In this document: one piece after another, positions 13,973 to 39,367 of the stretch | How the letters are laid out: each line of letters opens with the position of its first letter | How positions within the stretch are numbered: position 1 is the first letter of the stretch | DNA from: Aquimarina megaterium XH134 | GTDB taxonomy: Bacteria; Bacteroidota; Bacteroidia; Flavobacteriales; Flavobacteriaceae | DNA length: 64,000 nucleotides | Assembly (NCBI RefSeq): GCF_000520975.1 | Contig: NZ_JACB01000006.1 | Location: 186,001-250,000 of the forward strand | Direction: 5' to 3' | Notes under the pieces: generated by a model | The model's database searches: none | What the model was told of the DNA's origin: nothing | The model's input: only the letters and a program-made list of their open reading frames with translations | Position numbers and translations under genes: made by a program

Positions 13973-14159
13973 TTTTTGATGGTTATGTAGTTATCATAGC
14001 AAGCTGCAATTGCTCATTCCTACCCTTCTACTATATTTTTCATCCATAAAATTATATGTAACAAAAACATTTTTCATAAAAAAATTCCCAGTCCCGAAAA
14101 ATGAAACTGGGATATCGTATTCTTGACCTATGAAATCAATCTCATATACCATCTGTATC

Positions 14160-23672: not shown

Positions 23673-25951
23673 TCAACTGCTTTTAATGCTTCTGTGTTCT
23701 TTCTTGCCTCCTCTAGTTTTTCTTTATTATACAGCGAGATTACAAACTGGTTGGTATAACTCATACCTTCTTGCTGCACAATACCTTTTTGCTCACTAGA
23801 CTGTCCTTCTTCTGCAAATAAAAACTCTTCTAATACACATGTTTTTTTATTTTTTATGGTATCTAACCACATATTTATCGAGTTCGTATTCTCCATATGG
23901 ATCAGCAAAGTATTATCCCCATCGATCAATTGTACCATCTTGGGTATATTGTGTTTTGCCCTCCAGGCGGTTATCATTGCAATCCTATCGTTTTCACTAT
24001 TCTCTTTTAGAAAAGGCAAATCAGCCATAGTGATCTTCCATCGGGCTTTTGCCAATATAAACTCTTTATATACCACTCTAGGTAAAAAAGTATGCTTCTC
24101 TAACGCTTCACCCCAATAAAACCCAAGACCTGGTCGACCGCCTTGCTTTTGTACATCACATAAGAAATGATATACCGGCAATGCATTAGCACTATAATTA
24201 TGAGCATTAGTCAAACGAGGGATAATTTCTTTATTAAGTATTTTAGAGCGTAGTATAATACGACCATATTGCACCGATATCATTAGATCTGATATGGCAA
24301 CCTGCTGCTCTATAGGTACATTAGATTTTCCTAAATACGGGATTTCATACTCACGTATGGTTGCCCTGCGAATTACATTACCTGTCCTGGATTCTGGTAA
24401 ATGAACAACTTCGGCCAGGATCTGGTTTTGATACATTTCTTGTTCTACAGCTGCAATACCTTGTACATGTTTTAAAATATCCTCATTTCCGGTAGAAAAC
24501 CGTCCTAACAGATTCGCCGCAGAGGACCCTCCTACAGAAGAAAATATCATCTTTTCTTCACCATCAACCCTTGCAATTTGAGCAATCGTAGACATGGTAT
24601 CGGGCAAATCGTTCCAGTCTAATTCGAGATGTTCAACATCCTTATCTTCGAGCGATAGCGTATATTGGTTTTCTTTATGTATATGTTGTAATTTCTTATT
24701 TAGAATTTCCTGTACTGGGGTCCAGTGCATTTCTTGTTTGGAAGCTGGTTTGGAAGGGATATACAGATCGTCTAAAAAAGAAGTAGAGTCATTAGCACTC
24801 TGATGCTGAAGGTATCCAATACCTACCTCGGTATCTAAAGCAGTAGCCAGGGGAATTTCCTGAGTTTCGTATCGCTTTGTAAATGCATCTTTAAACCGTT
24901 GCAAGTGGGTTTCTGATGAAGCGCTATTCATTCTGTTTAACAGCTCTAGTGCTCGCGTTAGCTTATACCCCCATCGTATATTTAATTGATTAGACTGTGC
25001 CTGAGTATACATATCGGTCTGAAAAAGATATTTTAACTCAAAAGGCGTTTCTAGTTTCGCTACCCGCTCACTAAGTTTTAGGTATTCGCCAGATCCATTA
25101 CCCAGTTTCTGATCTATTTGTTCCAGAAATTTTTTATAGTAATCAATTTCTGTTAGTATAGCATCGGTACCTTCTATCTCACTCAAACAGGTTTCTAACT
25201 GTTCTAAAAAATCATCCCCGGTTACAGAGGGTTCTATTTCGCTCACCAGGATTTGATTGTCTATCAATTCGTCTATAAATTCTGAAGCTTCTTCGTGTGT
25301 AATTTCGTCATCAACCAGTAGAGAAGCTAATTCTTTTATTTTTTTACCAGTCCTGGCACTCTCGATTATAGCTTCGAGATACTCTGCATAGGCCACTGCC
25401 TCTATAGAATGTTCTCGTCGATTATATTGATTATACTTATATTCGATATATCGATATTGATCTCCGATTTTATACAGGCTATTATTAGTATACCACAATA
25501 GTTGTTTTTTGATGACTTCTTCTTTGGCCATCTTTTGTGAGAACGCTACCAAAAAGTTCATATCAAATCGCGTTTGTCTTTGATGAGTATCATAATTAGA
25601 CAATTCTATTGCTGTAGTCTTACCAAAGGTTCCTATACTACAACCAGCAAATAATCCAAAGGGAGTACAACGCGAACTCATCCTGGATAAATATTTTAAC
25701 AAAGATGATTCTAATCGTTTCTTCTTTTTAACATCTTCGAGTTGCCCCGACAACCATTTCTCGATTTCAGAAAATAACTCTGGTGATGCCAGAAAAATAG
25801 CTTCTCTAATACTGTCATTTTTCCAGACATCTTTAAACATTTCTACAGGGATGTCCTTCTCTTTGGTAAGGTTATGATAAAAATCTAATGGTAAAAGGGG
25901 AGTTCTTAGACAAAACTGATCAAAGAAGGTATATGGATTTTTTAGTTTCAA
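23666..25951 (-). CDS. lantibiotic dehydratase, large LanB subunit
   Basis: 761 residues, the tRNA-Glu-dependent glutamylation part of LanB. Hallmarks: RTPLLPLDFYHNL near 17, SSLLKYLSRMSSRCTPFGLF near 85, GCSIG, a central VGGSSAANLLGRFS segment and NAHNYSANALPVYHFLCDVQ near 580. It lacks the elimination domain, which is the separate 22270-23139 protein. The start codon appears to be TTG (25951): an in-frame stop lies four codons upstream of it and no ATG fits. It probably modifies the precursor at 20239-20439. The small gap to the GIY-YIG gene holds repeats rather than a promoter. Confidence 0.93.
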   Translation of the reverse strand: MKLKNPYTFFDQFCLRTPLLPLDFYHNLTKEKDIPVEMFKDVWKNDSIREAIFLASPELFSEIEKWLSGQLEDVKKKKRLESSLLKYLSRMSSRCTPFGLFAGCSIGTFGKTTAIELSNYDTHQRQTRFDMNFLVAFSQKMAKEEVIKKQLLWYTNNSLYKIGDQYRYIEYKYNQYNRREHSIEAVAYAEYLEAIIESARTGKKIKELASLLVDDEITHEEASEFIDELIDNQILVSEIEPSVTGDDFLEQLETCLSEIEGTDAILTEIDYYKKFLEQIDQKLGNGSGEYLKLSERVAKLETPFELKYLFQTDMYTQAQSNQLNIRWGYKLTRALELLNRMNSASSETHLQRFKDAFTKRYETQEIPLATALDTEVGIGYLQHQSANDSTSFLDDLYIPSKPASKQEMHWTPVQEILNKKLQHIHKENQYTLSLEDKDVEHLELDWNDLPDTMSTIAQIARVDGEEKMIFSSVGGSSAANLLGRFSTGNEDILKHVQGIAAVEQEMYQNQILAEVVHLPESRTGNVIRRATIREYEIPYLGKSNVPIEQQVAISDLMISVQYGRIILRSKILNKEIIPRLTNAHNYSANALPVYHFLCDVQKQGGRPGLGFYWGEALEKHTFLPRVVYKEFILAKARWKITMADLPFLKENSENDRIAMITAWRAKHNIPKMVQLIDGDNTLLIHMENTNSINMWLDTIKNKKTCVLEEFLFAEEGQSSEQKGIVQQEGMSYTNQFVISLYNKEKLEEARKNTEALKAVEV

Positions 25952-26323: not shown

Positions 26324-27499
26324 ATGAAACAGTTATTTCCAAAAGAAATTATAGAAAACACCATAGAGGTACATCAGTTTGAGCATAGTAGCAGAAGTAA
26401 AATGATCTACACAACAATATTGGTTGCTTTTGTCATTGCATTAGCCCTTTTGCCATTTATCAAGATCGATATCTATACCACAGCAAGAGGAATGTTAAGA
26501 CCTAGTAAAGAACGTATTGCTATTACTCCGCTTCAATCGGGTAAAGTTGTTTTTGTAAATATGATTGATAATCAAAAAGTAAATAAAGGGGATACCTTGC
26601 TTATGACCAATACGTCGGTAGTAAAGGAACAAATTACCCGGTCCTCGACACAGATTAAAGAGACCGAGCAGTTTATTGCAGATTGCGAATATCTGATCAA
26701 TACGGCTAAGCCGAAATTTAATAACATACAATCGGCACGTTACCAAAAAGAGTATCTGTACTTCACTCAAAAAATACAAGAGCTAAGAACCCGATTTGAA
26801 AAAACAAAAATCGATTACCTGCGTAACCAAAAACTGTATGAAAAAGGGGTGGTCGCCAAAGTCGATTATGAGAATAGTGCTTTTGAGCATCAACTGGCAT
26901 CGAGTACACTGCAGCAATACCGAAAACAACAAAAAAATAACTGGCAGGCTACAGTAACAGAGTACCACAACACCATAAGAGAATTAAAAGGTGGATTAAC
27001 ACAACTAAAACAGAATCAAAAAGAACTGTTGATTACAGCACCAATTGACGGAATTCTTAAAAATGTTTTAGGTATCGAGCCAGGTAGTCTAATCGCAGGA
27101 GGACTAACTATTGCCGAAATATCTCCCGATACGGGACTGGTTGCAGAATGTTACCTCTCGCCATCGGATATAGGATTAGTGAGTCGAAATAAATCGGTGA
27201 ATTTTCAGATCGATGCTTTTAACTATAACCAATGGGGACTGGCTACCGGAAAAATTCTGGAGATCAGTAAAGATGTAGACATCATTAATGAACGACCTGT
27301 TTTTAAAGTACGCTGTGCTATCGACCAGGGCCATCTCGAACTTAAAAATGGTTTTAAAGGAAGTTTCAACAAAGGGATGACGCTAAGCGCACGATTTCAA
27401 CTTACGCAACGTACCCTGTATGAATTACTTTATGACAAAGTAGATGATTGGCTTAACCCATCGAGTCCCACTATAGCAGAAGCAGTATATGCTAAATAA
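26324..27499 (+). CDS. HlyD-family periplasmic adaptor
   Basis: 391 residues. A single N-terminal transmembrane helix (about 28-48), a biotinyl/lipoyl-like half-domain (LQSGKVVFVNMIDNQKVNKG), a long coiled-coil hairpin (about 100-240), the returning half (ITAPIDGILKNVLGIEPGSL) and a beta-barrel C-terminus. It joins the inner-membrane ABC exporter to the outer membrane. It is 143 bases upstream of the C39-ABC exporter, on the opposite strand from lanB, so the two halves of the cluster are divergent. Confidence 0.93.
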   Translation: MKQLFPKEIIENTIEVHQFEHSSRSKMIYTTILVAFVIALALLPFIKIDIYTTARGMLRPSKERIAITPLQSGKVVFVNMIDNQKVNKGDTLLMTNTSVVKEQITRSSTQIKETEQFIADCEYLINTAKPKFNNIQSARYQKEYLYFTQKIQELRTRFEKTKIDYLRNQKLYEKGVVAKVDYENSAFEHQLASSTLQQYRKQQKNNWQATVTEYHNTIRELKGGLTQLKQNQKELLITAPIDGILKNVLGIEPGSLIAGGLTIAEISPDTGLVAECYLSPSDIGLVSRNKSVNFQIDAFNYNQWGLATGKILEISKDVDIINERPVFKVRCAIDQGHLELKNGFKGSFNKGMTLSARFQLTQRTLYELLYDKVDDWLNPSSPTIAEAVYAK

Positions 27500-27642: not shown

Positions 27643-29826
27643 ATGGCTAAAACAAAAATAAAACAACACGATATCACTGATTGCGGTGCGGCTTGCCTGG
27701 CATCAATTTCGGCACATTATAAATTGCAACTGCCAATCGCACGTATTCGACAGTTTGCAAGTACCGATAAAAAAGGAACCAATGTATTGGGATTAATCGA
27801 AGCTGCCGATAAACTCGGGTTTGAAGCCAAAGGAGTACGTGGGGACCTGGACAGTTTGTTTAAAATCCCTAAACCTGCCATCGCTCATGTAATCGTGAAT
27901 GAGAAATTACATCATTATGTAGTGATCTACGAAGTGACTAAAGAGCACATCAAAATAATGGATCCGGGAGATGGTAGGTTTCACAAAAAAACCCATGAAG
28001 AGTTTAACAAAGAATGGACAGGCGTATTGGTATTACTACTACCAAAAGAAGATTTTACAACAGGTAACGAAAAAGTATCAGTTTATAAACGATTCTGGTT
28101 TTTATTAAGACCTCATAAAGGAGTATTGATACAGGCATTTGTTGGAGCGATCATCTTTACATTATTAGGGTTCTCTACCTCGATATACATCCAAAAACTT
28201 ACCGATCATGTTTTTATGGGTACCAGTACCAAACTACTTAATCTGTTAGGAATCGTTATGGTCACATTATTACTTCTAAAACTAATAGTAGGAGCATACA
28301 AAGATGTTTTCCTGATCAAAACCGGGCAACAGATCGATTCGCGACTGATTCTTGGGTACTATAAACACCTGTTAAAACTACCTCAACAATTTTTTGATAC
28401 CATGCGGGTGGGAGAGATCATCTCCCGAATCAATGATGCCGTAAAAATCAGAAACTTTATCAATGGGGTAGCTTTAAACTTAACGGTTAATATCCTAATC
28501 CTGGTGTTCTCTTTTGGATTGATGTTTACCTACTATTGGAAACTAGCACTGATCATGCTGGCAATTATCCCAATTTATGCAATCATATATATAATCACCA
28601 ATAAGCTGAATAAGCGCACAGAACGAGGGATTATGGAAAAATCTGCAGATCTTGAAAGTCAGTTGGTAGAATCTCTAAATGCTGTAGGAACTATCAAAAG
28701 ATTTGGTCTTGAAGGCTTTGCCAATATTAAAACAGAAACCCGCTTTATTGGGTTATTAAAAACAGGATACAAATCTGCATTAAACAGTGTATTTTCTAAC
28801 TCCAGTACCGGTACTATTGCACAATTATTTACCATCATCCTATTATGGAGCGGCTCTTTTTTTGTGATTCAAAAAGAAATTACTGCCGGAGAACTTATGG
28901 CCTTTTATGCCATTATAGGATATTTTACCAGCCCTGTTGCCAGTTTAATTAGTGCCAATAAGCAAATCCAAAATGCATTGATTGCTGCAGACCGTTTGTT
29001 TGAGATCATGGACCTGGAACGCGAAGAAGGTGAGCAGAAAATAAAACTCACAAAAGATAGCATTGGTGATATCAATTTCTCTAATGTAGGGTTTAGATAT
29101 GGATCCAGAGTAGAAGTTTTTAAGGATTTTAATCTTGAGATTCAGACAGGAAAAATCACAGCCATTATCGGGGAGAGTGGTTCGGGAAAATCTACTCTGA
29201 TGTCTCTACTACAAAATATTTATCCTATCCAGAAAGGGCAAATATCTATAGGAAATCAGGATCTGAAACACATCGAGAATGGTAGCCTTAGAGACCTGGT
29301 AAGTGTAGTGCCACAAAAAATAGATCTGTTCGCAGGTAATGTGATAGACAATATTGCAGTAGGAGAATTTGCTCCCGATGTAGAGCGTATTATGGAGGTA
29401 TGTAAAGCCATAGGTATTCTTGAATTTATAGAAAATCTGCCCAATAGCTTTGCTACGTATCTGGGAGAAAACGGGGCTACCTTATCTGGAGGACAAAAAC
29501 AACGTATTGCCATTGCCAGAGCATTGTATAAAAATCCTGAAGTATTGGTCCTGGACGAAGCTACCTCTTCACTAGATAGTACTTCAGAAAATTATATACA
29601 GAGAGCAGTACAAAGTTTGCGTGATCAGGATAAAACCATCATCATTATTGCCCACCGGTTAAGTACAGTGATTAATGCCGATAAAATTGTAGTACTCGAA
29701 AAAGGGAAAGTAGTAGAAGAAGGAAATCATGAAGTATTATATGCCCGACAGGAAAAATACTATGAACTATGGCAAAAACAAATGCCAGTAGTAGATCATA
29801 TCCCTAAAATAAATGCTGTTGCATAA
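27643..29826 (+). CDS. C39-peptidase ABC exporter for leader peptides
   Basis: 727 residues. N-terminal C39 peptidase with catalytic Cys14 (QHDITDCGAACLASI), His91 (EKLHHYVVIY) and Asp107 (IMDPGDG), so it should be active. Six transmembrane helices at about 165-430. ATPase with Walker A GESGSGKST near 510, signature LSGGQKQRIAIARAL near 614 and Walker B VLVLDEATSSLDS. It cuts leader peptides after a double-glycine-type site while exporting the core. Likely clients are the lanthipeptide and the nine double-glycine peptides downstream (inference from proximity). Confidence 0.95.
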   Translation: MAKTKIKQHDITDCGAACLASISAHYKLQLPIARIRQFASTDKKGTNVLGLIEAADKLGFEAKGVRGDLDSLFKIPKPAIAHVIVNEKLHHYVVIYEVTKEHIKIMDPGDGRFHKKTHEEFNKEWTGVLVLLLPKEDFTTGNEKVSVYKRFWFLLRPHKGVLIQAFVGAIIFTLLGFSTSIYIQKLTDHVFMGTSTKLLNLLGIVMVTLLLLKLIVGAYKDVFLIKTGQQIDSRLILGYYKHLLKLPQQFFDTMRVGEIISRINDAVKIRNFINGVALNLTVNILILVFSFGLMFTYYWKLALIMLAIIPIYAIIYIITNKLNKRTERGIMEKSADLESQLVESLNAVGTIKRFGLEGFANIKTETRFIGLLKTGYKSALNSVFSNSSTGTIAQLFTIILLWSGSFFVIQKEITAGELMAFYAIIGYFTSPVASLISANKQIQNALIAADRLFEIMDLEREEGEQKIKLTKDSIGDINFSNVGFRYGSRVEVFKDFNLEIQTGKITAIIGESGSGKSTLMSLLQNIYPIQKGQISIGNQDLKHIENGSLRDLVSVVPQKIDLFAGNVIDNIAVGEFAPDVERIMEVCKAIGILEFIENLPNSFATYLGENGATLSGGQKQRIAIARALYKNPEVLVLDEATSSLDSTSENYIQRAVQSLRDQDKTIIIIAHRLSTVINADKIVVLEKGKVVEEGNHEVLYARQEKYYELWQKQMPVVDHIPKINAVA

Positions 29827-29906: not shown

Positions 29907-30239
29907 ATGAAAAAAATAGAGCGTCAAATTGAAGTCATAGAACGATTAAATCGGTTGATACGATTAGGAAAAACGGGAACTCCTGATCAATTATCCGAAA
30001 AATTGGAAATCTCAAAAGCATCTTTGTTTCAGATTCTTGGAGTAATGAAACAACTTAATGCTCCTATTGTATTTGATATCACACTACAGAGTTATGTCTA
30101 TGAAGAATCTGTAAACTTTACTTATGGTTTTTACACCCGTAAACTTTATGGAGAAGAAGTACTAGAGGTATCTTCTTATAATGCTCAAAGTATTATGATG
30201 CAAGTAGATTTTAAATACCCAAGCTTAAGAATAGTATAA
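29907..30239 (+). CDS. small HTH protein, copy 1
   Basis: 110 residues from the ATG at 29907. N-terminal winged-helix-type HTH (RLNRLIRLGKTGTPDQLSEK, LEISKASLFQILGVMKQLNA; two blocks) like the HTH_11/DeoR group, followed by a short strand segment (PIVFDITLQSYVYEE) and a hydrophilic tail. No ligand or effector domain is present. A paralogue is 280 bases downstream at 30520. Candidate regulator of the peptide operons that follow; the target site is not known. Confidence 0.85.
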   Translation: MKKIERQIEVIERLNRLIRLGKTGTPDQLSEKLEISKASLFQILGVMKQLNAPIVFDITLQSYVYEESVNFTYGFYTRKLYGEEVLEVSSYNAQSIMMQVDFKYPSLRIV

Positions 30240-30260: not shown

Positions 30261-30443
30261 ATGAAAAATTATGATCCACAAAAAAACGAAAGCAACCTAA
30301 CAGAACGTAAATTAGAAAACGATTTTTTACAACAAGAAATCAATGATCCAGAACTAAAACATGTGATATCTGATGTTATTTCCTACTCTGAAGAGTACGA
30401 AATCTATATAGATCATGATGATATGAACGATTGGATGTTGTAA
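30261..30443 (+). CDS. small acidic protein of unknown function
   Basis: 60 residues, strongly acidic (YSEEYEIYIDHDDMNDWML at the end), with no signal peptide or membrane helix. It lies between the two HTH genes, 21 bases after the first. Not recognised. It could be an anti-activator or a chaperone-like partner, but nothing supports a choice. Confidence 0.6.
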   Translation: MKNYDPQKNESNLTERKLENDFLQQEINDPELKHVISDVISYSEEYEIYIDHDDMNDWML

Positions 30444-30519: not shown

Positions 30520-30834
30520 ATGAATATTATCATCAAGCAAATCGAAATGATCGAGAGAATTGACCGACTCATACGCCTACAAGCCACGGGAACTCCTGTA
30601 GAGCTAGCATCAAGACTAGGAATCTCTAGAGCGCAAACCTATAGGATTATTGATATTATGAAAGAGCTAAATGCTCCTATCACTTATGATTTTACAATAC
30701 AGAGTTTTGTATATGAAGAAACTGTAGGTTTTAAATTTGGGTTTTATACAAAAGAACTCGACGCCACAGAGATTAGATCTGTTAGTGGAGGAAATTCTTT
30801 TGAAAGATTACAATACCTGGCTGCCAGCATATAA
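30520..30834 (+). CDS. small HTH protein, copy 2
   Basis: 104 residues, a clear paralogue of the protein at 29907-30239: both have QIE-IERL/IDRLIRL-TGTP, an HTH, then the LNAPI-x-(F/Y)D-(I/F)T-(L/I)-QS-(Y/F)VYEE segment. The copies differ in their tails (SVSGGNSFERLQYLAASI here). The pair suggests a duplicated regulator, perhaps acting as homo- or heterodimer on the palindromic promoters of the peptide genes. Confidence 0.85.
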   Translation: MNIIIKQIEMIERIDRLIRLQATGTPVELASRLGISRAQTYRIIDIMKELNAPITYDFTIQSFVYEETVGFKFGFYTKELDATEIRSVSGGNSFERLQYLAASI

Positions 30835-31288: not shown

Positions 31289-31325
31289 ATCTCATAAAAT
31301 GAGATCATCGCATACTATCATTGTA
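31289..31325 (+). promoter_or_regulatory. peptide-regulon promoter, site 1
   Basis: Palindrome ATCTCAT-AAA-ATGAGAT (31289-31305), 10 bases, then TATCATTGTA (31316-31325), in which TATCATTG is close to the -7 element TAnnTTTG. Same layout and spacing as sites at 32096, 35205 and 39064. The palindrome takes the place of a -33 box, so an activator bound there is likely. Confidence 0.75.
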
Positions 31326-31395
31326 GTATAAAAGAGATAGCGTAGCTGTATTTACAGCTGTAACAACAAAATCATTAATCATTAAATCGTAAAAA

Positions 31396-31542
31396 ATGAA
31401 AAATTTAAGTAACAAAGAGGCATTAGAAACCAATGGAGGGTCAGCATTTCCTATTCCTAGTTGGTTACAGCCTTTAGCAGATTATTTTTTTGGTGTACCA
31501 AAAGAAGAAAAGGAAAACCATACAAATTCAAATAATCACTAA
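31396..31542 (+). CDS. double-glycine leader peptide 1
   Basis: 48 residues; too short for many gene callers. Short leader MKNLSNKEALETNGG (cleavage after Gly15) and a core SAFPIPSWLQPLADYFFGVP followed by a polar tail. No cysteine. The leader is shorter than usual but keeps the MKNL start and NGG end shared by its neighbours. It is first in a two-gene unit under promoter site 1, 71 bases from the -7 element. The function of the core is unknown. Confidence 0.75.
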   Translation: MKNLSNKEALETNGGSAFPIPSWLQPLADYFFGVPKEEKENHTNSNNH

Positions 31543-31560
31543 TTACAAAAACATAAAAAA

Positions 31561-31722
31561 ATGAAAAACTTAAACAACTACAACGTTCAGGAGCTGCAAT
31601 CAAACGAACTTTTTAACAACAACGGAGGTACTTTATTAATATCTGCTACTACACGTAAAATCATTTGCGAAGTTACCACCGGTTTTTTCAATATTCCGAC
31701 TACTTCATTTACACTATCATAA
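31561..31722 (+). CDS. double-glycine leader peptide 2
   Basis: 53 residues. Leader MKNLNNYNVQELQSNELFNN then NGG (cleavage after Gly23), and a core TLLISATTRKIICEVTTGFF ending in FTLS. One cysteine; rich in Thr/Ser and hydrophobic residues. It follows peptide 1 after 18 bases, so both are one transcript, which ends at the hairpin 31812-31848. Export by the C39 transporter is expected from the NGG site. Confidence 0.78.
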   Translation: MKNLNNYNVQELQSNELFNNNGGTLLISATTRKIICEVTTGFFNIPTTSFTLS

Positions 31723-31811
31723 TTATTGATAGTAAAAAAGAAAAGATCAAAAGAATTAGATTGTAAAAAAACGAACCATTTGAATTGATAACACATCAGT
31801 GTTTGCATTGT

Positions 31812-31848
31812 AAAAAAAGAGTCTTGTAGTAACAAGACTCTTTTTTTT
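31812..31848 (+). terminator. terminator of peptide unit 1
   Basis: Long stem AAAAAAAGAGTCTTGT with ACAAGACTCTTTTTTT around a four-base loop, and a run of T. The rest of the 538-base gap to the next peptide holds only the promoter at 32096-32132 and a leader. Confidence 0.9.
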
Positions 31849-32095
31849 GCTTTATGCTAAATAGCACTCTTCTTTCCTGAAAAAGTATTAAGGAAGTTAC
31901 AGCAATTCTATTTCTGAAAAAAACTTAACAACTATAGTATACTATCCCGAAATAAATACTAGGGCAGACTAGACTCTAAGAACCATGAATAGTGAAGCGC
32001 TTAATAGATGTTGAAATGGTATTGATGCTTTGTTATTGCCCTACATATCATGTCTTACTTAAAAATAATCATGAAAAAATGAAAAAAAAATATCA

Positions 32096-32132
32096 GTCTC
32101 ACAAGATGAGACAGCCCCACCGTATCATTGTA
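32096..32132 (+). promoter_or_regulatory. peptide-regulon promoter, site 2
   Basis: Palindrome GTCTCA-CAAGA-TGAGAC (32096-32112), 10 bases, TATCATTGTA (32123-32132). The bases after it (CTGTGAAAG) are also like sites 1 and 3. Confidence 0.78.
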
Positions 32133-32260
32133 CTGTGAAAGGGAAACAACAAAGCTTTTCACGATTGTTGCAACAACAAAAAAGAGTTTACATATCGATT
32201 TGACGGAATGGATAGTGTAAGCATAAATTAAAAAAATCATTAATCATTAAATCGTAAAAA

Positions 32261-32443
32261 ATGAAAAATTTGAACAACTTAGAATTTCAAGAATTATCAA
32301 AACAAGAAGCAACAGAAATTAACGGAGGTATCGTTTGTGGTGGATTCTGTGTAGGAGCTCTTATCGTAATTGGAGTTGGTGCTTTAGGTCTAGGTATATA
32401 CAACGGATACCAGGATGAAAAAGACAAGCACGAAAAGAAATAA
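32261..32443 (+). CDS. double-glycine leader peptide 3, glycine-rich with Cys pair
   Basis: 60 residues. Leader MKNLNNLEFQELSKQEATEI then NGG (cut after Gly23). The core IVCGGFCVGALIVIGVGALG is a hydrophobic, glycine-rich helix with Cys26 and Cys30, ending in a charged tail (DEKDKHEKK). It has the look of a pore-forming bacteriocin with one disulphide. The 39 bases up to and around its start codon are identical to those before peptide 1. The VKOR-Trx gene 1.2 kb downstream could form the disulphide (inference). Confidence 0.85.
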   Translation: MKNLNNLEFQELSKQEATEINGGIVCGGFCVGALIVIGVGALGLGIYNGYQDEKDKHEKK

Positions 32444-32489
32444 GAAAAAATTTAAAACAAAACATTAATTAATTAAAAAAACAAATAAC

Positions 32490-32672
32490 ATGAATACTTT
32501 AGAATTAAACGTAACAGAATTATCAAGCAAAGAATTAAGAACTTTAGAAGGTGGTGTTATCGATCCTATCACTGTAACAGCAGCTGGAGCAGCAGTAGTA
32601 CTTGCAGCTATCGGTGGACTTTATAAAGCTGGAGAAGCTATAGGAAAAGGACTTTACCACCTTTTTAACTAA
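32490..32672 (+). CDS. double-glycine leader peptide 4, GxxxG helix
   Basis: 60 residues. Leader MNTLELNVTELSSKELRTLE then GG (cut after Gly22). Core VIDPITVTAAGAAVVLAAIG followed by GLYKAGEAIGKGLYHLFN: alanine/glycine-rich with small-xxx-small motifs, no cysteine. Its C-terminus resembles the next peptide (AG-x-AIGK-xx-YH). This is like the partners of two-peptide bacteriocins, an analogy rather than a family match. Third unit member after peptide 3 by 46 bases. Confidence 0.83.
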   Translation: MNTLELNVTELSSKELRTLEGGVIDPITVTAAGAAVVLAAIGGLYKAGEAIGKGLYHLFN

Positions 32673-32682
32673 TATAACTATC

Positions 32683-32820
32683 ATGGGTATATTTCAAAAA
32701 GGTAGTGGTGTTGATATTACTCCTTATTTAGAATATGTTGTACTTGCAATCGTTGCAGTAATCTTTTTCTATAACGCTGGAGTTGCGATAGGTAAATTTA
32801 TCTATCATATTAAACACTAG
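32683..32820 (+). CDS. leaderless bacteriocin-like paralogue
   Basis: 45 residues, starting 10 bases after peptide 4. MGIFQKGSGVDITPYLEYVV has no double-glycine leader. The C-terminal half (VAVIFFYNAGVAIGKFIYHI) shares AG-x-AIGK-xx-YH with peptide 4, so the two probably derive from a duplication. It may be a membrane-located immunity peptide that mimics peptide 4, or a leaderless bacteriocin. One transmembrane helix is predicted. A terminator follows 9 bases on. Confidence 0.75.
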   Translation: MGIFQKGSGVDITPYLEYVVLAIVAVIFFYNAGVAIGKFIYHIKH

Positions 32821-32829
32821 ACCACTAAA

Positions 32830-32861
32830 ATAACCCTCTGGTATATTGCCAAGAGGGTTAT
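32830..32861 (+). terminator. terminator of peptide unit 2
   Basis: Stem ATAACCCTCT (32830-32839) with AGAGGGTTAT (32852-32861), then a T-rich stretch. Confidence 0.9.
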
Positions 32862-32926
32862 TTATTTTATTAAAAAAACACCACAATTCGTGCTGAACTT
32901 GTTTCAGTCTCAAAAAATCTAATATC

Positions 32927-33490
32927 ATGGAATCAAAAGTTTTAATACATATTATAAAAGAAATAGAAACAACAGAAAATACAATACAGGTAGAAGAATT
33001 TATTACCGATTTATTTGTGTATACCAAGCAAAAAGATAATGATGTTTTCTATAGAAAAGATGAAGATAAAATGTATGCTGTAAACAAAATAGCAAAAAAC
33101 ATAACACCTATTTCATTAGATCAAAGGCAACAACAAGCTGATCAATTTAAAAAACTATTTTCTCAAATAGACGTTGAGCATAAAGCAGAAGAAAATAGCC
33201 GAAGCATAAGTATTGATGGTAAAGGCAATATCGTAACCATATCGGGAGAAGTAAAAATATCTAAATTTCCTGACCTTGAACATACAGCTAATCTTGGAGC
33301 GTATAAATTATTAAGCAAATCATCTTTGGTAGATATCGATATGGAAAATAACGAAATCACCAATTATGCAGATATTAATATTAATGTACAGGGGAAAAGA
33401 ATTAAAAATAAAACCGTGATAAAAAACATTGAGGTTTTAACCACCGATATTAATCGATATGATTATTTACTCAATTATTCGGTAAACTAA
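32927..33490 (+). CDS. protein of unknown function in the peptide cluster
   Basis: 187 residues, soluble, no signal peptide. The first half is helical and charged (ETTENTIQVEEFITDLFVYT); the second half is made of strands (GKGNIVTISGEVKISKFPDL). Not recognised. It is 66 bases past the terminator of peptide unit 2 and 114 before the VKOR gene, on the same strand. A single GTCTCA half-site precedes it (32908-32913) without its partner. Immunity or regulation are possible roles, neither supported. Confidence 0.7.
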   Translation: MESKVLIHIIKEIETTENTIQVEEFITDLFVYTKQKDNDVFYRKDEDKMYAVNKIAKNITPISLDQRQQQADQFKKLFSQIDVEHKAEENSRSISIDGKGNIVTISGEVKISKFPDLEHTANLGAYKLLSKSSLVDIDMENNEITNYADININVQGKRIKNKTVIKNIEVLTTDINRYDYLLNYSVN

Positions 33491-33538
33491 CCTCTCTGAT
33501 CTTCTATGCATATAGAAATCTATATATAAAAAGAATTG

Positions 33539-33587
33539 ATTTTCAGATGATCTTTTGAATTCTATGATCGTTCGGCTATCTGAAAAT
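33539..33587 (+). repeat. stem-loop before the VKOR gene
   Basis: ATTTTCAGAT (33539-33548) and ATCTGAAAAT (33578-33587), perfect 10-base arms with an internal GATC...GATC pair. It ends 18 bases before the likely start codon and may control its translation. Confidence 0.6.
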
Positions 33588-33604
33588 GTATTGCATTCAC
33601 TCTA

Positions 33605-35167
33605 TTGTATAACCGAAAAAAACATTTTATTTTGGATCAAACGGTATTAAAAATTCTTCTGCAACTTAAAAGAGAACTCTCATTAGAAATTCCTAATGAG
33701 AAATTAGAATCACTTTTGCTTAGTCATCAGGATTATCCCAGTATCTTTTCTTTTTCTGATACATTAAAAAAAATAGGTGTCGAAAATAAGGCAGGCAGAA
33801 TCTCATCGGATCAATTACTGAAATTATCTCCTATTTTTCTAGCGTATTCTATAGAAGAAGGCCTGGTAATCGTTACTAACATTTCGGGTGCCGAAATACG
33901 CTATTATAGTGGTAATAGTAATACCCTTATTGTAGAAAGTTTTGAGGACTTCTTACAGAAATGGAATGGTATTGTTCTTTTGATTGATACCGATGCTATT
34001 GTTGAAATGTCTAAAGAAGATCTGGCTCGCGAAAAACTAAAAAGAACGAAGCATTTTGGAGCTTTGTCTTTATTAGCTATTCTTATCACCTTATCGATAA
34101 AAAGTTATCATGGAGTATTTAATCTGTTCTTACTTACAAAATTAGCAGGAACTCTTATTAGTTTACTAATAGTATATACCGAGGTTAGCATCATACATAA
34201 ATCTAAATTCTGTAAATCTAATGATCATATAAGCTGCGAAGGTGTCTTAAACTCTGGGGCTTCTAAAATTTTTTCCTGGCTTTCTATGTCAGATTTAGGG
34301 TTATTATACTTTTCAGGAAGTTTTATATCGATTTGCATTGCTTCGATGGCCTCCAATTTTAAAAGTGTTGCTTTTTTGATAAGTATACTCTCCTTTTTTA
34401 CATTTCCATATATATTTTTTTCTATTTACTATCAATATAAAATAGTAAAGAAATGGTGCATGTTGTGCCTGGTAATCCAGGGGATATTTTTTATAGAAAC
34501 CTTACTTTCTTCATATTTTCTTTTTAACAACAATTTCGAATCATCTATAAATGGATTTCTCATACCTGGTATTTCTTTTTCATTAATCATCATTATATGG
34601 TCTTATCTAAAAAACCCTGTATATAAATATTTTCAATTTAAAGAAAGTATGTACAAATACGTAAGGCTAAAAAACAATCCCGAAGTTTTTACACTACTAC
34701 AAGAGAAAGAGAACCTTATTAATACTGCTTTTACTGAAAATCATATTGTATTCGAAAATTCTAAGGACATCGATAAAAGAGCAGCTTTGGTCATAAATCC
34801 TTATTGTCACCTCTGTGCAAAGGAGTTTCAAAAAATCCTTGAAATCAATAAAACTTCTGAGGGGATCAATTTCTCATTGATTTTTTCTGATACCGACAGC
34901 AATGAAATCTCACAATTTCTTATTGAGCTGTATTATAAAAAGACAAAATCAGAATTCCTATCCGTATTAAGTAAGTGGTTTGAACACAAAAATTTAAATA
35001 CACTAAAGGAAAAGTATGCCATAGAAATATCTGAAAAATCGAGAACAACTTATGCCCAACACAAAAAATGGTGTACCCAGAATAATATTTTGCAAACTCC
35101 GCTTACTATTTTTAATAATAGAAAATTATCAAATCACTATACCATAGAAGATCTTATCACATTCTAA
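33605..35167 (+). CDS. VKOR-thioredoxin fusion with degenerate C39-like N-terminus
   Basis: About 520 residues. The N-terminus (to about 135) resembles a C39 peptidase but shows no catalytic Cys. Residues 145-325 are a five-helix vitamin K epoxide reductase domain with loop cysteines Cys203 and Cys211 and active site Cys285-x-x-Cys288 (KKWCMLCLVIQ). The C-terminus is thioredoxin-like with Cys401-x-x-Cys404 (NPYCHLCAKEF). Such fusions oxidise cysteines outside the cytoplasm. The start is a TTG at 33605; an in-frame stop lies 24 bases upstream (TGA at 33581) and no ATG is available. It probably forms disulphides in the exported peptides with Cys pairs. Confidence 0.9.
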   Translation: MYNRKKHFILDQTVLKILLQLKRELSLEIPNEKLESLLLSHQDYPSIFSFSDTLKKIGVENKAGRISSDQLLKLSPIFLAYSIEEGLVIVTNISGAEIRYYSGNSNTLIVESFEDFLQKWNGIVLLIDTDAIVEMSKEDLAREKLKRTKHFGALSLLAILITLSIKSYHGVFNLFLLTKLAGTLISLLIVYTEVSIIHKSKFCKSNDHISCEGVLNSGASKIFSWLSMSDLGLLYFSGSFISICIASMASNFKSVAFLISILSFFTFPYIFFSIYYQYKIVKKWCMLCLVIQGIFFIETLLSSYFLFNNNFESSINGFLIPGISFSLIIIIWSYLKNPVYKYFQFKESMYKYVRLKNNPEVFTLLQEKENLINTAFTENHIVFENSKDIDKRAALVINPYCHLCAKEFQKILEINKTSEGINFSLIFSDTDSNEISQFLIELYYKKTKSEFLSVLSKWFEHKNLNTLKEKYAIEISEKSRTTYAQHKKWCTQNNILQTPLTIFNNRKLSNHYTIEDLITF

Positions 35168-35204
35168 TAGTGTTTTCCATACTTTTTTTCAAAAAAAATA
35201 TAGC

Positions 35205-35241
35205 GTCTCATAAGATGAGACATTCAACTCTTATCATTGTA
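35205..35241 (+). promoter_or_regulatory. peptide-regulon promoter, site 3
   Basis: Palindrome GTCTCAT-AAG-ATGAGAC (35205-35221), 10 bases, TATCATTGTA (35232-35241). It is the best palindrome of the four. It drives the four-peptide unit that starts at 35306. Confidence 0.8.
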
Positions 35242-35305
35242 CTATCAAAAGGAATTGAAAAGATTTATTACCATAAAATAACTATTAATCATAAAAACGT
35301 AAAAA

Positions 35306-35461
35306 ATGAAAAATTTAGAAAAACTTGGAGTTCAATCGTTAAGTACTACTGAAACCAGAGAAACACAGGGAGGTATAATTTTCCCGGGACTTTACACAAG
35401 CTTAGTAACCGAGGCTATCATCTTTGTACACAATGTAAAAAAAGTAATCAAACAATTATAA
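35306..35461 (+). CDS. double-glycine leader peptide 5
   Basis: 51 residues. Leader MKNLEKLGVQSLSTTETRET then QGG (cut after Gly23), and a hydrophobic core IIFPGLYTSLVTEAIIFVHN with a basic end (VKKVIKQL). No cysteine. It is a cationic amphipathic peptide in shape. First gene of unit 3, 65 bases past the -7 element, with the A-rich pre-start sequence shared by peptides 1 and 3. Confidence 0.8.
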   Translation: MKNLEKLGVQSLSTTETRETQGGIIFPGLYTSLVTEAIIFVHNVKKVIKQL

Positions 35462-35483
35462 CAAATTGCAAAAATTAAGTGTC

Positions 35484-35639
35484 ATGAAAAATCAAGTTAT
35501 AAGCCAGTACACATTATTATCATCAAAAGAAATCACAACCATTAATGGTGGTTGCGGAGGAGAGGACATTGAGTGTCCAGAATTAGAGTTATTACAAGAA
35601 GTATTAGACAATTTAAAACATCTACTAGCAGTGCTCTAA
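35484..35639 (+). CDS. double-glycine leader peptide 6, acidic with Cys pair
   Basis: 51 residues. Leader ending TTINGG (cut after Gly23), core starting CGGEDIECPELELLQEVLDN with Cys24 and Cys31, then a hydrophobic end. It is acidic, unlike peptide 5, so the two could be complementary partners. The Cys pair could form a small disulphide loop right after the cleavage site. Starts 22 bases after peptide 5. Confidence 0.78.
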   Translation: MKNQVISQYTLLSSKEITTINGGCGGEDIECPELELLQEVLDNLKHLLAVL

Positions 35640-35683
35640 GCACTTTAGCATTATTAATAATCATCAATCTTAAAACGAAAATC

Positions 35684-35854
35684 ATGAAAAATTTAAAATC
35701 ATTCGAAGCATTAAACAACGATCAATTAAATACCATTAATGGTGGTTTGGTTATTCCAAATCTGGGAGATCTGGATACATTTCCAATTGTACCATTTGGT
35801 GATCCTAGAGAATGGGATAACTATTTTCCTAAAAAAGAAACTTCTAGTTTCTAA
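35684..35854 (+). CDS. double-glycine leader peptide 7
   Basis: 56 residues from the ATG at 35684; a longer frame upstream has no sensible start. Leader MKNLKSFEALNNDQLNTI then NGG, core LVIPNLGDLDTFPIVPFGDP followed by WDNYFPKKETSSF. Proline-rich with aromatic residues, no cysteine. This composition recalls unmodified, extended bacteriocin-type peptides rather than lanthipeptides. Confidence 0.8.
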   Translation: MKNLKSFEALNNDQLNTINGGLVIPNLGDLDTFPIVPFGDPREWDNYFPKKETSSF

Positions 35855-35908
35855 ACTACTTTAATTTCATCAATCATCATTATATCATCAATCTTAAAAC
35901 GAAATCGC

Positions 35909-36097
35909 ATGAAAAGTTATAAAACTGCATCCTTTCAGGAATTAAATGCATCAGAACTAATCACAATAGAAGGTGGTGCTTTTTTTCCTGCAATTTCTAC
36001 CTCTGATACACCAGGATTGCCTGGACTTGACCACCAATTTAATAAAGATTGGGGATGGGTCGGGAGCGGTCCCGGAGGTCAAAATACTAGCTTGTAA
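35909..36097 (+). CDS. double-glycine leader peptide 8
   Basis: 62 residues. Leader MKSYKTASFQELNASELITI then EGG (cut after Gly23); core AFFPAISTSDTPGLPGLDHQ followed by FNKDWGWVGSGPGGQNTSL. Gly/Pro/Trp-rich, no cysteine. Last peptide of unit 3; 54 bases after peptide 7. Confidence 0.82.
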   Translation: MKSYKTASFQELNASELITIEGGAFFPAISTSDTPGLPGLDHQFNKDWGWVGSGPGGQNTSL

Positions 36098-36125
36098 ACT
36101 AATGAGTAAAGTTAGTGAGTTCATT

Positions 36126-36156
36126 TTCTCCTATAATCTATTTGGTTATAGGAGAA
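36126..36156 (+). terminator. stem-loop after peptide unit 3
   Basis: Stem TTCTCCTATAA (36126-36136) with TTATAGGAGAA (36146-36156). The following T-run is weak, so it may be a terminator or only an RNA end-stabilising structure. Confidence 0.55.
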
Positions 36157-36220
36157 TTATGCTTCTAAGCTTTTCTTTATAAAAGAATATTCAATTCTAT
36201 ATATCTCAAAAACATACACC

Positions 36221-36697
36221 ATGACAAACGAAAAAGAACTACTCTATAAAATCCTTGAAAACTTTAATGGAATGGGGAAAATCGAAGCTTATGATCTAAC
36301 CCATAAGCTAGAAACTCTTTTGTTTTATGCATCTAATCCAGTTAATGCCAAGGAACTTAAACAACTCATAGTTTCTGATATGGATCATGATCATGAAATT
36401 GATCCTTTTCATTTTACTATTCTGCCAAATGGTAATTTTTGTGAGTTTGTAGGTTGTAATAATTGGATGCATGTTTACAAAGAAAACAAGAGGATATTAC
36501 CTGATTGGCCTGTTTTTGAAACTTATTATTTTAAAACAAGATATGCTCCTTTAGAACTTAAAAAACTAACCAAAAAAAATCTGTTACAAGATGTAAAAGA
36601 AAAAAATGAAGACGAAAAAGTAAGAGCCTTTTTAAAGCAATATAATGTTTGTAAAAAGGATGTAGTGACCAACAGATTATTAATTTTAGAAGCATAA
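36221..36697 (+). CDS. protein of unknown function
   Basis: 158 residues, cytoplasmic by composition, no signal peptide or membrane helix. It is acidic in the centre (DMDHDHEIDPFHF) and basic towards the end (LELKKLTKKNLLQDVKEK). Not recognised. It lies between the peptide unit and recX on the same strand. It could belong with the peptide cluster as an immunity protein or with neither. Confidence 0.7.
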   Translation: MTNEKELLYKILENFNGMGKIEAYDLTHKLETLLFYASNPVNAKELKQLIVSDMDHDHEIDPFHFTILPNGNFCEFVGCNNWMHVYKENKRILPDWPVFETYYFKTRYAPLELKKLTKKNLLQDVKEKNEDEKVRAFLKQYNVCKKDVVTNRLLILEA

Positions 36698-36737
36698 CTT
36701 TTGGGGTAATTATAAAAGTCACTGTACATTTGTGGTC

Positions 36738-37217
36738 ATGTATAGAAATCCCATTACATCTATAACCGTAGCCGAGGCATTACGAAAAATGGAACGCTAT
36801 TGTGCCTACCAGGAACGTTGTCATAAAGATGTAGAGGATAAATTAAGGACTATGAAACTTATTCCAGAGGCTAAAGAAAAAATTATTCTACATCTTCTGG
36901 ATCAAAATTTCCTTAATGAAGAACGTTTTGCCAAAGCGTTTGCCCGAGGGAAATTTAATATCAAAAAATGGGGTAAACAACGAATAGTACGTGAACTCAA
37001 ATTTCGTAATATCTCACCTTACAATATAAAAACGGCACTTAAAGAAATACCCGAAAAAGATTATTTTGAAACTTTTCATAAGCTTGCCGAAAAAAAATAC
37101 TACAGTATTACTGAGCAGGACAAAAACAAAAAACGTAAAAAACTTATAGACTATCTTTTGTATCGGGGATGGGAAACCACTCTTGTTTATGAAAAAGTGA
37201 ATGAGTTAATTCTATGA
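36738..37217 (+). CDS. recX: RecX family regulatory protein
   Basis: 159 residues from the ATG at 36738 (a GTG two codons upstream is also possible). Three tandem three-helix RecX repeats are visible, with YCAYQERCHKDVEDKLRTM near 20, LNEERFAKAFARGKFNIKKW near 70 and LIDYLLYRGWETTLVYEKV at the end. RecX modulates RecA filaments. It marks the return to conserved genome outside the peptide cluster. Confidence 0.92.
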   Translation: MYRNPITSITVAEALRKMERYCAYQERCHKDVEDKLRTMKLIPEAKEKIILHLLDQNFLNEERFAKAFARGKFNIKKWGKQRIVRELKFRNISPYNIKTALKEIPEKDYFETFHKLAEKKYYSITEQDKNKKRKKLIDYLLYRGWETTLVYEKVNELIL

Positions 37218-37271
37218 CGTAAAAAGGAGCAATATATCAATTTAGAAACACTGCCCCCTTTCATAAAATTT

Positions 37272-38675
37272 CTATTTATTTAACAGAGTGATTGCTCTTT
37301 CTATTCCGCTATCTTTTTCATTAACAAAATCGTCGTTAGAAAATAGTGGAACTCTATTTCCTTCACTTGGCCCAACCCCAATTGCTTCATAAACCTTTCC
37401 ATTAACATCACTATACACCTCATTAGACAATGCTATTGAAGCTCCGTTTGGTAAAGTGTGTGCTAAAATATCAGAAAAAACTCCATTGGTATTATCACCA
37501 ACTAATGTTACATAAGGTAAATCTTTCATACAAAGTGTAAAAACCTCTGCCGCACTTGCTGTTAAAGGGCTTGTTAATACTACTATGTCCTCCTTAAATT
37601 GAAAATCACCTTTGGGAGTCATAGATACCGATGTGCTTTTGGTAAAACCGCTTCCTAATTTTGCTTTTTTAGAAAATGCAAGTCGTTCATGATCCAAAAA
37701 TCGCGAAGCTATATTCACTGAAGCCATGTCGTATCCCCCACCATTAAAACGAACATCGATTATTAATTTAGAAACTGCAGCACCTTTAAGGTCATTCATT
37801 ATTTTGTCTAATACCGAATTTAATATTTCCATCTCATTTTTTGTGGTATCACTATACCCTTCCATTCCCAAAATATTAATATATGCGATATCATTGCCAA
37901 TCATCCCCCACACGATTTTTCCTTTTTCATCAGCCTTAAATTCGTTATCTAAATACTTTACTGCTATGGTTTGTAATTTCTGGTTATATAGTGTATTGTA
38001 ATCTTCTCCAGATTGGATAAGTAAGTTTCCTCTTAAACTTGAATTTAATCTAGAAATCAGATCAGGAGAACCTGCATCGATCGCAATATTATTAGCTTCA
38101 TCATCAATACCTACATGCCCATCCTTTAAAAGAAAAACTAACTCCTGTAGAATATCATAAAAATTATCTGAAGTTACTTGTTCTCTTAGGTTTTTGTATT
38201 GCGACCAGTTTACATTTCTTGTTTCAAAAAAAGCATAATAATCATTAAAAATGTTCCAAAAATGATCAAAATTAATCTTTGGATCTTTAGTATTGGCAAT
38301 CTGATTAGGGAGGCAAAACTCATTTTGATTTAATAACCTCTTAAACTCAATACTAGATGCACTAAGCTCTGGAGCCCCTACCAATTTGTCTGGGCCAATT
38401 AGATCTAGCGGTACACCCCAAGATTCTTCTGGCACAAAATTATTTTCTATAATTGTACATCCAATAGAATTTATGCCATACAGCACTTTTGTTGTGTCGG
38501 TAATCTTTACGACATATCCTTTATCTTCGGCTAACCAAAAGCCATTTATAGTTTTTTCTGGTTCGGGCTCAGGTTGATCATCATCAGACTTACAAGCTGT
38601 AAATAAAATCACGGATAAGATTAAAAAACATCTTTTTAAATTTATAATACCGTTGTGTAAATTCATACTAATCAA
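37272..38675 (-). CDS. S41 family peptidase lipoprotein
   Basis: 467 residues. Signal peptide with lipobox LFTAC (about residues 24-28) then KSDDDQPEPEPE, a spacer of outer-membrane lipoproteins. The C-terminal S41 (C-terminal-processing-peptidase-like) domain has VSKLIIDVRFNGGGYDMASV and the catalytic Ser in TSPLTASAAEVFTL. No PDZ domain is obvious. It degrades peptides in the periplasm or at the surface. It stands alone on the minus strand and converges with recX. Confidence 0.9.
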   Translation of the reverse strand: MISMNLHNGIINLKRCFLILSVILFTACKSDDDQPEPEPEKTINGFWLAEDKGYVVKITDTTKVLYGINSIGCTIIENNFVPEESWGVPLDLIGPDKLVGAPELSASSIEFKRLLNQNEFCLPNQIANTKDPKINFDHFWNIFNDYYAFFETRNVNWSQYKNLREQVTSDNFYDILQELVFLLKDGHVGIDDEANNIAIDAGSPDLISRLNSSLRGNLLIQSGEDYNTLYNQKLQTIAVKYLDNEFKADEKGKIVWGMIGNDIAYINILGMEGYSDTTKNEMEILNSVLDKIMNDLKGAAVSKLIIDVRFNGGGYDMASVNIASRFLDHERLAFSKKAKLGSGFTKSTSVSMTPKGDFQFKEDIVVLTSPLTASAAEVFTLCMKDLPYVTLVGDNTNGVFSDILAHTLPNGASIALSNEVYSDVNGKVYEAIGVGPSEGNRVPLFSNDDFVNEKDSGIERAITLLNK

Positions 38676-38842
38676 ATTTTTAAAAGTTACATTTCATTGA
38701 CAAATAAAAAACCTATCGGTCGCATTAAAAATGATCACAGTGCAGTACTCGCAAACATCAATTTATAAATAGACCGATATGTAATTAATTATAGCCAAAA
38801 CTAGGTAGGGCTTATAAAATCGATGTCCGATATTATTAAAAT

Positions 38843-39070
38843 TTAAGAATTCGAAACCTTTTTATTTTTAGATTTAAGTTGACAGGGGGTTAATCCAGTT
38901 TTTTTGAACGAAGTATAAAAAGTAAATCCTGATTTTTGTCCTATGGCAAATAAACCATACTTATGAAATTCTAATGAATTGTATAGAATTAATCCTGAAT
39001 ATTTTTCAAAATCCAAATCGCATAAATCATTATAAATGATAAGCAGATACAAAATTTTAGTATGTCTCAA
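38843..39070 (-). pseudogene. AraC-type HTH remnant
   Basis: 75-residue frame whose end, GQKSGFTFYTSFKKTGLTP followed by CQLKSKNKK, matches the second HTH of an AraC-family domain (GFxSxSxFYxxFKKxTGxTPxxYR) with several residues missing. Its first 40 residues do not fit. This looks like a decayed 3' part of a regulator such as those at 18-22 kb; it may still be a short unrelated gene. Its 5' end overlaps promoter site 4. Confidence 0.5.
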
Positions 39071-39098
39071 AATATGAGACTCTTGCGGCTTAAGTTTG
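39064..39098 (+). promoter_or_regulatory. peptide-regulon promoter, site 4
   Basis: Palindrome GTCTCA-AAATA-TGAGAC (39064-39080), 10 bases, TAAGTTTG (39091-39098), a full match to TAnnTTTG. It precedes the orphan peptide at 39203 by about 105 bases, like the other three sites. The remainder of the 527-base gap 38676-39202 holds the AraC remnant and nothing else I can support. Confidence 0.68.
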
Positions 39099-39202: not shown

Positions 39203-39367
39203 ATGAAAAATTTAAATGAATTGAAAGTAAGCGAACTAAGCTTTGAAGAAACTACTCAAATAGAAGGAGGAGGTCCTATCGGAGACTTAATCGATGATAT
39301 AGTAGAAGTTGTAGAAACTGCTATTGAAGTGATTAAGAATTTGAAAAAATTCACCCCAACCTTGTAA
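39203..39367 (+). CDS. double-glycine leader peptide 9, orphan
   Basis: 54 residues. Leader MKNLNELKVSELSFEETTQI then EGG (cut after Gly23); core GPIGDLIDDIVEVVETAIEV and IKNLKKFTPTL: an acidic amphipathic helix with a basic tail, no cysteine. It lies 3.1 kb from the last peptide, beyond recX and the S41 gene, under its own copy of the regulon promoter. It could be a dispersed member of the same system. Confidence 0.8.
   Translation: MKNLNELKVSELSFEETTQIEGGGPIGDLIDDIVEVVETAIEVIKNLKKFTPTL

Follow-up and report, generated by a model that had tools for sequence, protein, structure and literature searches.

The window analysed here is a stretch of 64,000 nucleotides from Aquimarina megaterium XH134 (contig NZ_JACB01000006.1, positions 186,001 to 250,000), which between 26 and 40 kb encodes an HlyD-type adaptor, a C39 peptidase-containing ABC exporter, two small helix-turn-helix (HTH) proteins, here called HTH1 and HTH2, and nine peptides with a double-glycine (GG) leader arranged in four units (table 1). 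Each unit is preceded by a palindrome of the type GTCTCA-N5-TGAGAC and a −7 promoter element, and the question addressed in the following is whether these palindromes are operators of a regulator family to which HTH1 and HTH2 belong.

The peptides carry the features by which GG leaders are recognized, namely leucine at −12, glutamate at −8, hydrophobic residues at −7 and −4 and the double glycine itself, the two glycines being invariant in the 12 peptides aligned; the make-up of the leader columns agrees across 132 leaders, which were selected by the GG pattern. Matches of the peptides to NCBIfam models are weak, with one of the eight scanned passing its cut-off (a general bacteriocin leader model, 16.0 versus 15.7 bits), and the C39-type ABC exporter expected for GG-leader peptides is present at the locus.

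Promoter layout before the peptide units

Direct reading of the window bears out the first-pass annotation, which had described four palindromes at constant 10-base spacing ahead of four GG peptide units. The spacer between operator and −7 element is exactly 10 bases at all four sites, the −7 element being TATCATTG at three of them and TAAGTTTG at the fourth, and the distance to the peptide gene, given earlier as 65–130 bases, was recomputed as 72, 130, 66 and 104 bases (sites 1–4) from the end of the −7 element to the ATG. In the Flavobacterium psychrophilum transcriptome the sigma-A −7 box TAnnTTTG spans −12 to −5, according to the available part of PMC9723704, and on that ruler the palindrome would occupy about −39 to −23. 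Within the window, the palindrome pattern with three mismatches allowed is not enriched (13 matches versus a shuffle mean of 17); a count confined to the window is thus uninformative, and those for the whole genome and the genus are decisive.

In the genome (6.2 Mb) the exact 17-mer pattern is found in four places, three of them inside the window, and the pattern read backwards in none. A genome-wide scan for the palindrome together with its −7 element (TCTCA-N5-TGAGA-N11-TANNNTT), as suggested by the first-pass annotation, returned six sites, all on one strand and all before GG peptide genes, versus none for the control; the two outside the window (C29:194358 and C33:101430, the second with one end base changed) keep the 10-base gap, with TAGTTTTA, and have GG peptides downstream. 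Looser scans of the genome, with one or three mismatches, gave control matches as numerous as the real ones, and from the matches listed the best-matching members alone were followed.

The comparison covered 66 genomes of the genus and 249 of the Flavobacteriaceae. In the genus the same layout has 93 matches, versus eight for the control, in 25 of the 66 genomes. The window and the genus loci that were fetched hold 74 distinct oriented TCTCA-N5-TGAGA sites, each palindrome being counted on both strands; TA stands at a gap of 10 in 36 of them, and no other gap between 6 and 16 has more than four, a count biased because the loci were partly selected by a pattern with the same gap, the family data being unaffected. 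A short open reading frame (ORF) with a loose GG pattern lies within 260 bases downstream of all 36 gap-10 sites (doubtful by eye in three, L319, L323 and L324), and follows three of the remaining 38. Wide occurrence of the motif before unrelated genes, which the first-pass annotation had named as evidence to the contrary, is thus not seen for the TCTCA form; related half-sites do precede genes of other kinds. Outside the A. megaterium genome, GTCTCA in its exact form, followed by TA at gap 10, hardly exceeds background in the family sample (nine matches in eight of 248 genomes, five in the control), and other genera use a different half-site.

Cores of the type GTYCCG-AAAAA-YGAAAC number 22 in the A. 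megaterium genome, versus one in the control, and 19 of the 22 are followed by 10 bases and TAnn[AC]TTG; they precede RHS-like and various other genes, one such promoter lying at 14091 in the window (14091–17783 with its RHS-like ORF). In distant genera, HTH homologues stand beside GG peptides with CTGCAA-N5-NTGCAG, 10 bases and TAnnTT upstream. Forty named loci (from Aureicoccus, Flagellimonas, Robiginitalea, Sinomicrobium, Tenacibaculum, Polaribacter and others) were scanned for palindromes of any sequence upstream of 79 GG-like ORFs, with at least five of six pairs required, a loop of 3–8 and a gap of 4–15: loop 5 with gap 10 was found 31 times, and no other combination exceeds 11, apart from two (26 and 13) that represent the same centre in shifted form. 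Furthermore, a search of the 249 family genomes for the core TGCAAG-N5-TGCAGTG, made independently of TA or HTH, gave 32 matches versus four in the control. This motif occurs in 13 of 35 HTH-bearing genomes versus 12 of 214 others, and with TA at gap 10 in eight of 35 versus none of 214; a GG-like peptide follows in six of these eight, not in G037 and G160. Comparison of genomes therefore establishes the layout and its conservation, and the peptide regulon surmised by the first-pass annotation is supported and proves larger, extending to two unlinked loci of the same genome, to many genomes of the genus and, with another half-site, to other genera.

The small HTH family and the associated half-sites

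HTH1 and HTH2 are 53% identical over 93 residues, and HTH2 has ten matches in its own genome, counting HTH1 and HTH2 itself. Homologues of HTH2 occur in 37 of the 66 genus genomes and in 32 of the 249 family genomes (35 with a profile); relatives of the HTH proteins are found in Flavobacteriaceae. No Pfam or NCBIfam model passed at its cut-off for either protein, HTH2 scoring 17.2 bits with Pfam HTH_11, under the gathering cut-off of 25 bits, and a sequence search of the PDB gave nothing useful; 18 of 25 members of the family match HTH_11 at E 0.01, and Pfam also gives weak matches to several DNA-binding HTH families. AlphaFold2 predicts a winged helix, with a predicted local distance difference test (pLDDT) score of about 90 over residues 11–60; the model as predicted has the three helices and two-strand wing of that fold, and the nearest PDB folds to it are NiaR, BirA and CggR (best E 0.018), DtxR being also among them. 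HTH2 thus resembles HTH_11-type or BirA-, NiaR- and CggR-like winged-helix domains in predicted fold and in its weak sequence match, but differs from them in that no effector domain follows, in staying under the Pfam cut-off and in its GG-leader-like tail.

Members of the family are also found in other surroundings. In the A. megaterium genome a paralogue (locus L132, C4:132000-149000) lies directly upstream of two 48-residue GGG peptides and of an ORF resembling, by eye, an ATP-grasp maturase; no site of the half-site classes tested was found at this locus. In several genera, HTH homologues away from GG peptides (L057, L068, L071, L075, L076, L080 and L083) lie near an XRE-like gene, a response-regulator gene similar by eye to porX, or both.

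All 18 genus genomes with at least two matches to the TCTCA layout have, by the printed coordinates, an HTH homologue less than 1 kb from a match. The 29 genus genomes without a homologue yield four single matches (Fisher 3e-6, relatedness being ignored), and three homologue-bearing genomes also have a single one. In G255, G293, G294 and G296 the sole homologue found is of the HTH1 kind, with recognition helix SKASLF, yet TCTCA sites are present, so that HTH1-type proteins alone seem sufficient there. The paralogues encoded elsewhere in the A. megaterium genome precede RHS-like or other genes, two of them with GTCCCG-AAAAA-CGAAAC, 10 bases and TAATATTG in between; an in-register site of the tested classes was found for two alone of these eight proteins.

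Furthermore, the half-site varies with the recognition helix, SRA and SKA going with TCTCA, SKT with TYYCR, and SER and SQR with TGCAA. In the genus, the half-site type follows the helix in 33 of the 36 HTH proteins with a nearby site (Fisher 5e-7, relatedness and shared sites being ignored): proteins with an A-, G- or K-type helix (the residue after S[KR]) have TCTCA in 15 cases and TYYCR in one (L333), and those with a T-type helix have TYYCR in 18 and TCTCA in two, both in a cluster that also holds an A-type HTH protein. Among the 42 named HTH proteins, 23 have an in-register TGCA-type site, none a site of another type, and 19 none at all. The link of the layout to HTH genes and helix types is likewise established by comparison. 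As the half-site goes along with the type of recognition helix, the palindromes are likely to be bound by the HTH family, and the first-pass choice of the two small HTH proteins as the best regulator candidates gains from this as well as from the proximity in 18 of 18 genomes. Promoter architecture and regulator family are, by such comparison, well supported.

Probable activation of the peptide promoters and the alternatives

We consider it quite probable that the palindromes are operators of this winged-helix family, which most likely activates the promoters of the GG peptides. Small proteins of about 80–125 residues encoded beside the peptide exporter, such as HTH1 and HTH2, would read the palindromes as dimers, each on two 6-base half-sites with centres 11 bp apart. 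The dimer would bind at a constant distance of 10 bp ahead of the −7 element, occupying the place at which sigma normally reads −33, and would most likely activate promoters devoid of a −33 element. Linked and unlinked GG peptides would then be produced at the same time as the exporter by which they are cleaved and exported.

The TTG of the sigma-A −33 element of Bacteroidetes is expected 17–23 bases upstream of the TA. It is found at this distance in none of 147 distinct sites, and TAnnTTTG is the −7 element in at most 13 of them, the TA itself being part of the search pattern; by class, this form is seen in nine of 44 TGCAA, none of 36 TYYCR and at most four of 67 TCTCA sites (window site 4 being one), and TAnnATTG is the leading form in TYYCR and TCTCA sites. 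The absence of the −33 TTG and the mostly off-consensus −7 element favour activation: such a weak promoter is likely to require assistance, and the fixed gap fits a protein that touches the polymerase. Judging from promoter sequence, the HTH proteins are therefore likely to activate rather than repress, and we infer that the regulator replaces −33 recognition.

Several observations speak against the layout or against this interpretation. The operator sequence itself largely precludes a TTG at the −33 spacing, and the TTGCAA form has one 24 bases before the TA, immediately beyond the counted range. The genome also contains at least two more TCTCA-N5-TGAGA cores that are bare, with no TA at the 10-base gap (C15:157907 and C29:181372), no GG gene being seen around the former. 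When all six pairs are required in the scan of the named loci, the peak moves to loop 7 with gap 9 (11 sites) and loop 5 with gap 10 is left with one; the two combinations share their centre, and the exact symmetry of the TGCAA class is CTGCA-N7-TGCAG. Between −0.4 and +7 kb no site of the tested classes is found for 58 of the 94 genus HTH copies and for 19 of the 42 named ones, and the genus copies without a site include three GG-tailed ones of GG loci, with helix SRTKV or SRTNV (L258, L289 and L297). Finally, the 15 A/G/K-type proteins come from 12 loci, pairs sharing sites, and orthologues share ancestry.

The same regulator and operator could also act by repression, which appears unlikely: the operator, at about −39 to −23, would block the polymerase until the HTH protein is removed, for example by the exporter pulling on its tail. 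A centre near −31 is a usual position of a repressor operator, and CggR, NiaR, DtxR and BirA, which are among the nearest PDB folds, are repressors. With the −7 box at −12 to −5, as in the available part of PMC9723704, the operators would be centred near −31. A single fixed spacing across three half-site classes is, however, stricter than occlusion requires, and the bare promoter would be poor, given the lack of the −33 TTG in all 147 sites (partly forced) and the mostly off-consensus −7 element.

It is very unlikely that another regulator binds the palindrome with the HTH protein as an accessory. Candidates would be the TPR-AraC-type proteins encoded at 18249–22273, homologues of which are found in nine of 17 genus and six of 21 named cluster loci; none was found in the remaining eight and 15, whereas an HTH gene was found in 16 of the 17 genus loci, the exception being a fragment at a contig end (the named loci of this comparison were fetched by their HTH gene), and it is the HTH recognition helix that the half-site type follows. 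RiPP (ribosomally synthesized and post-translationally modified peptide) recognition elements also have a winged-helix fold, and many HTH genes sit among GG peptides; yet that the small proteins bind leader peptides rather than DNA, the palindrome belonging to something unseen, is most improbable, as in-register palindromes are also found with paralogues that neighbour RHS-like genes and no GG peptides, the half-site co-varies with the helix, and the weak Pfam matches are to several DNA-binding HTH families.

The leader-like tail, the exporter and the wider setting

Besides reading the operator, the HTH family may be connected to the exporter through its C-terminal part. HTH2 (TKELDATEIRSVSGG) and distant homologues (such as VNVLTNNEVTQIFGG) have tails in the leader register of the peptides, e.g. 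VQELNATEMNETNGG, positions −15, −12, −8, −7, −4 and GG being kept between distant homologues. With a profile of the 132 leaders, 27 of 35 distinct GG-containing HTH tails outscore the best of 823 background GGs in large ORFs, so that comparison establishes the leader-like character of the tail as well. In the genus, GG tails are borne by 13 HTH proteins, every one of them encoded in a locus that has a C39 exporter or two or more GG peptides, and elsewhere by none of 73; eight HTH proteins in such cluster loci are without one, four of them being HTH1 partners of a GG-tailed HTH2. In the named set, a script assigned a GG tail to 17 proteins in clusters and none to six, the figures outside being four and 15; after two corrections by eye those for clusters are 19 and four. 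DG, EG or QG replaces GG in many named loci without an exporter.

Given the GG-leader mimic carried by many family members encoded beside the exporter, the C39 domain would probably be able to bind or clip the regulator, tying peptide synthesis to export. The reading in which the exporter has the DNA-binding protein among its own substrates or ligands, with the tail of the latter bound or cleaved by C39 and peptide transcription thereby wired directly to the working state of the exporter, is advanced tentatively, such feedback having lower odds than dimer binding and activation. It is even possible that the part following GG (13 residues in HTH2) is released from the cell as a signal; the tail as a conserved pheromone is a candidate weakened by the sequence after GG, which ranges from nothing to 38 residues. 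FlgM is an export-coupled regulator, and the proposed idea of a regulator that is a substrate of the export system it serves would be akin to it; unlike FlgM-type regulators, a DNA-binding protein and a C39 ABC exporter would be concerned here, with the leader-like tail as the sole pointer.

That the GG-like tail is merely an inherited stretch without exporter contact is a serious possibility, if short of an even chance. Independent supported contrasts between tail and exporter are three, on a tree built without the tail columns, with a mean of 2.1 for and 0.1 against, which is not significant; so few contrasts leave room for shared descent. HTH1 in the window has no GG, and in the named set a GG tail persists in four of 19 HTH proteins for which no cluster was detected and is absent from four of 23 with a cluster, all of which tells against an exporter-directed role. 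Inheritance alone accords less well with the leader register kept between distant homologues, with the 27 of 35 tails scoring above all background GGs and with DG, EG or QG where the exporter is missing. Moreover, tail residues 76–91 of HTH2 are below 50 pLDDT in the AlphaFold2 model, and a folding reason for the conservation is accordingly not evident from the prediction.

Table 1. Positions in the window of the genes and promoter elements discussed.
Feature	Position	Strand	Basis
Related promoter of another half-site class, GTCCCG-AAAAA-TGAAAC, 10 bases, TATTCTTG	14091..14125	+	directly before RHS-like ORF (14130)
HlyD-type adaptor	26324..27499	+	domain search
Peptidase-containing ABC transporter (C39 domain and ABC)	27643..29826	+	Peptidase_C39 3.4e-37
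HTH1, small HTH protein, recognition helix SKASLF, tail without GG	29907..30239	+	sequence
HTH2, small winged-helix protein, recognition helix SRAQTY, proposed regulator	30520..30834	+	sequence, model
GG-leader-like tail inside HTH2, TKELDATEIRSVSGG	30748..30792	+	leader profile
Operator 1, ATCTCA-TAAAA-TGAGAT (slightly degenerate)	31289..31305	+	sequence
−7 element 1, TATCATTG	31316..31323	+	sequence
Unit 1, two GG peptides (31396, 31561)	31396..31722	+	ORFs, alignment
Operator 2, GTCTCA-CAAGA-TGAGAC	32096..32112	+	sequence
−7 element 2, TATCATTG	32123..32130	+	sequence
Unit 2, two GG peptides (32261, 32490) and a 45-residue ORF without GG (32683)	32261..32820	+	ORFs, alignment
Operator 3, GTCTCA-TAAGA-TGAGAC	35205..35221	+	sequence
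−7 element 3, TATCATTG	35232..35239	+	sequence
Unit 3, four GG peptides (35306, 35484, 35684, 35909)	35306..36097	+	ORFs, alignment
Operator 4, GTCTCA-AAATA-TGAGAC	39064..39080	+	sequence
−7 element 4, TAAGTTTG	39091..39098	+	sequence
Unit 4, one GG peptide	39203..39367	+	ORFs, alignment

Other genes surround these features. The two TPR-AraC-type proteins are encoded on the minus strand, with HTH_18 in the one scanned, and perhaps form a sensory layer above the HTH proteins. Two ORFs at 22270–25951 (minus strand), divergent from the exporter operon, resemble by eye a split lantibiotic dehydratase, the larger having homologues in three of the 17 genus cluster loci, window included. A VKOR-domain protein at 33605–35167 is a possible disulfide factor for the peptides (two of 17 loci, window included), and a 60-residue ORF at 30261–30443, between HTH1 and HTH2, has a weak BrnT match below cut-off (three of 17, window included).

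In the Gram-positive Pln, Blp and Com regulons a shared promoter motif, made of direct repeats, precedes GG-peptide genes. The system described here has in common with these bacteriocin regulons (PMC2714321 concerns PlnC/PlnD) one promoter motif for many GG-peptide genes; it differs from such two-component systems in that the repeats are inverted and no kinase or response regulator was recognised, by reading, among the cluster ORFs. Bacteroidetocin loci likewise combine a GG peptide, a thiol oxidoreductase and a C39 transporter in Bacteroidetes, according to the available part of PMC6671954, in whose main text the word 'regulator' is absent and the two uses of 'promoter' concern vectors. No described regulator or system of the present kind was found in the accessible part of the open-licence literature.

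Thus, a family of small flavobacterial DNA-binding proteins probably switches on secreted-peptide genes via one fixed promoter layout, and many of those adjoining GG peptides carry a tail resembling, in sequence, the peptides' own export tag. The link to the exporter is a bold but testable reading; if the exporter does read the tail, a direct circuit would run from peptide export to transcription, of a kind not met in the open-licence papers searched. The three half-site classes, paired with three recognition-helix types, offer a natural test set for protein–DNA specificity. Flavobacteria gain a predicted regulator, an operator code and a promoter layout for their GG-peptide clusters, by which peptide genes can be found through their operator and perhaps be switched on.

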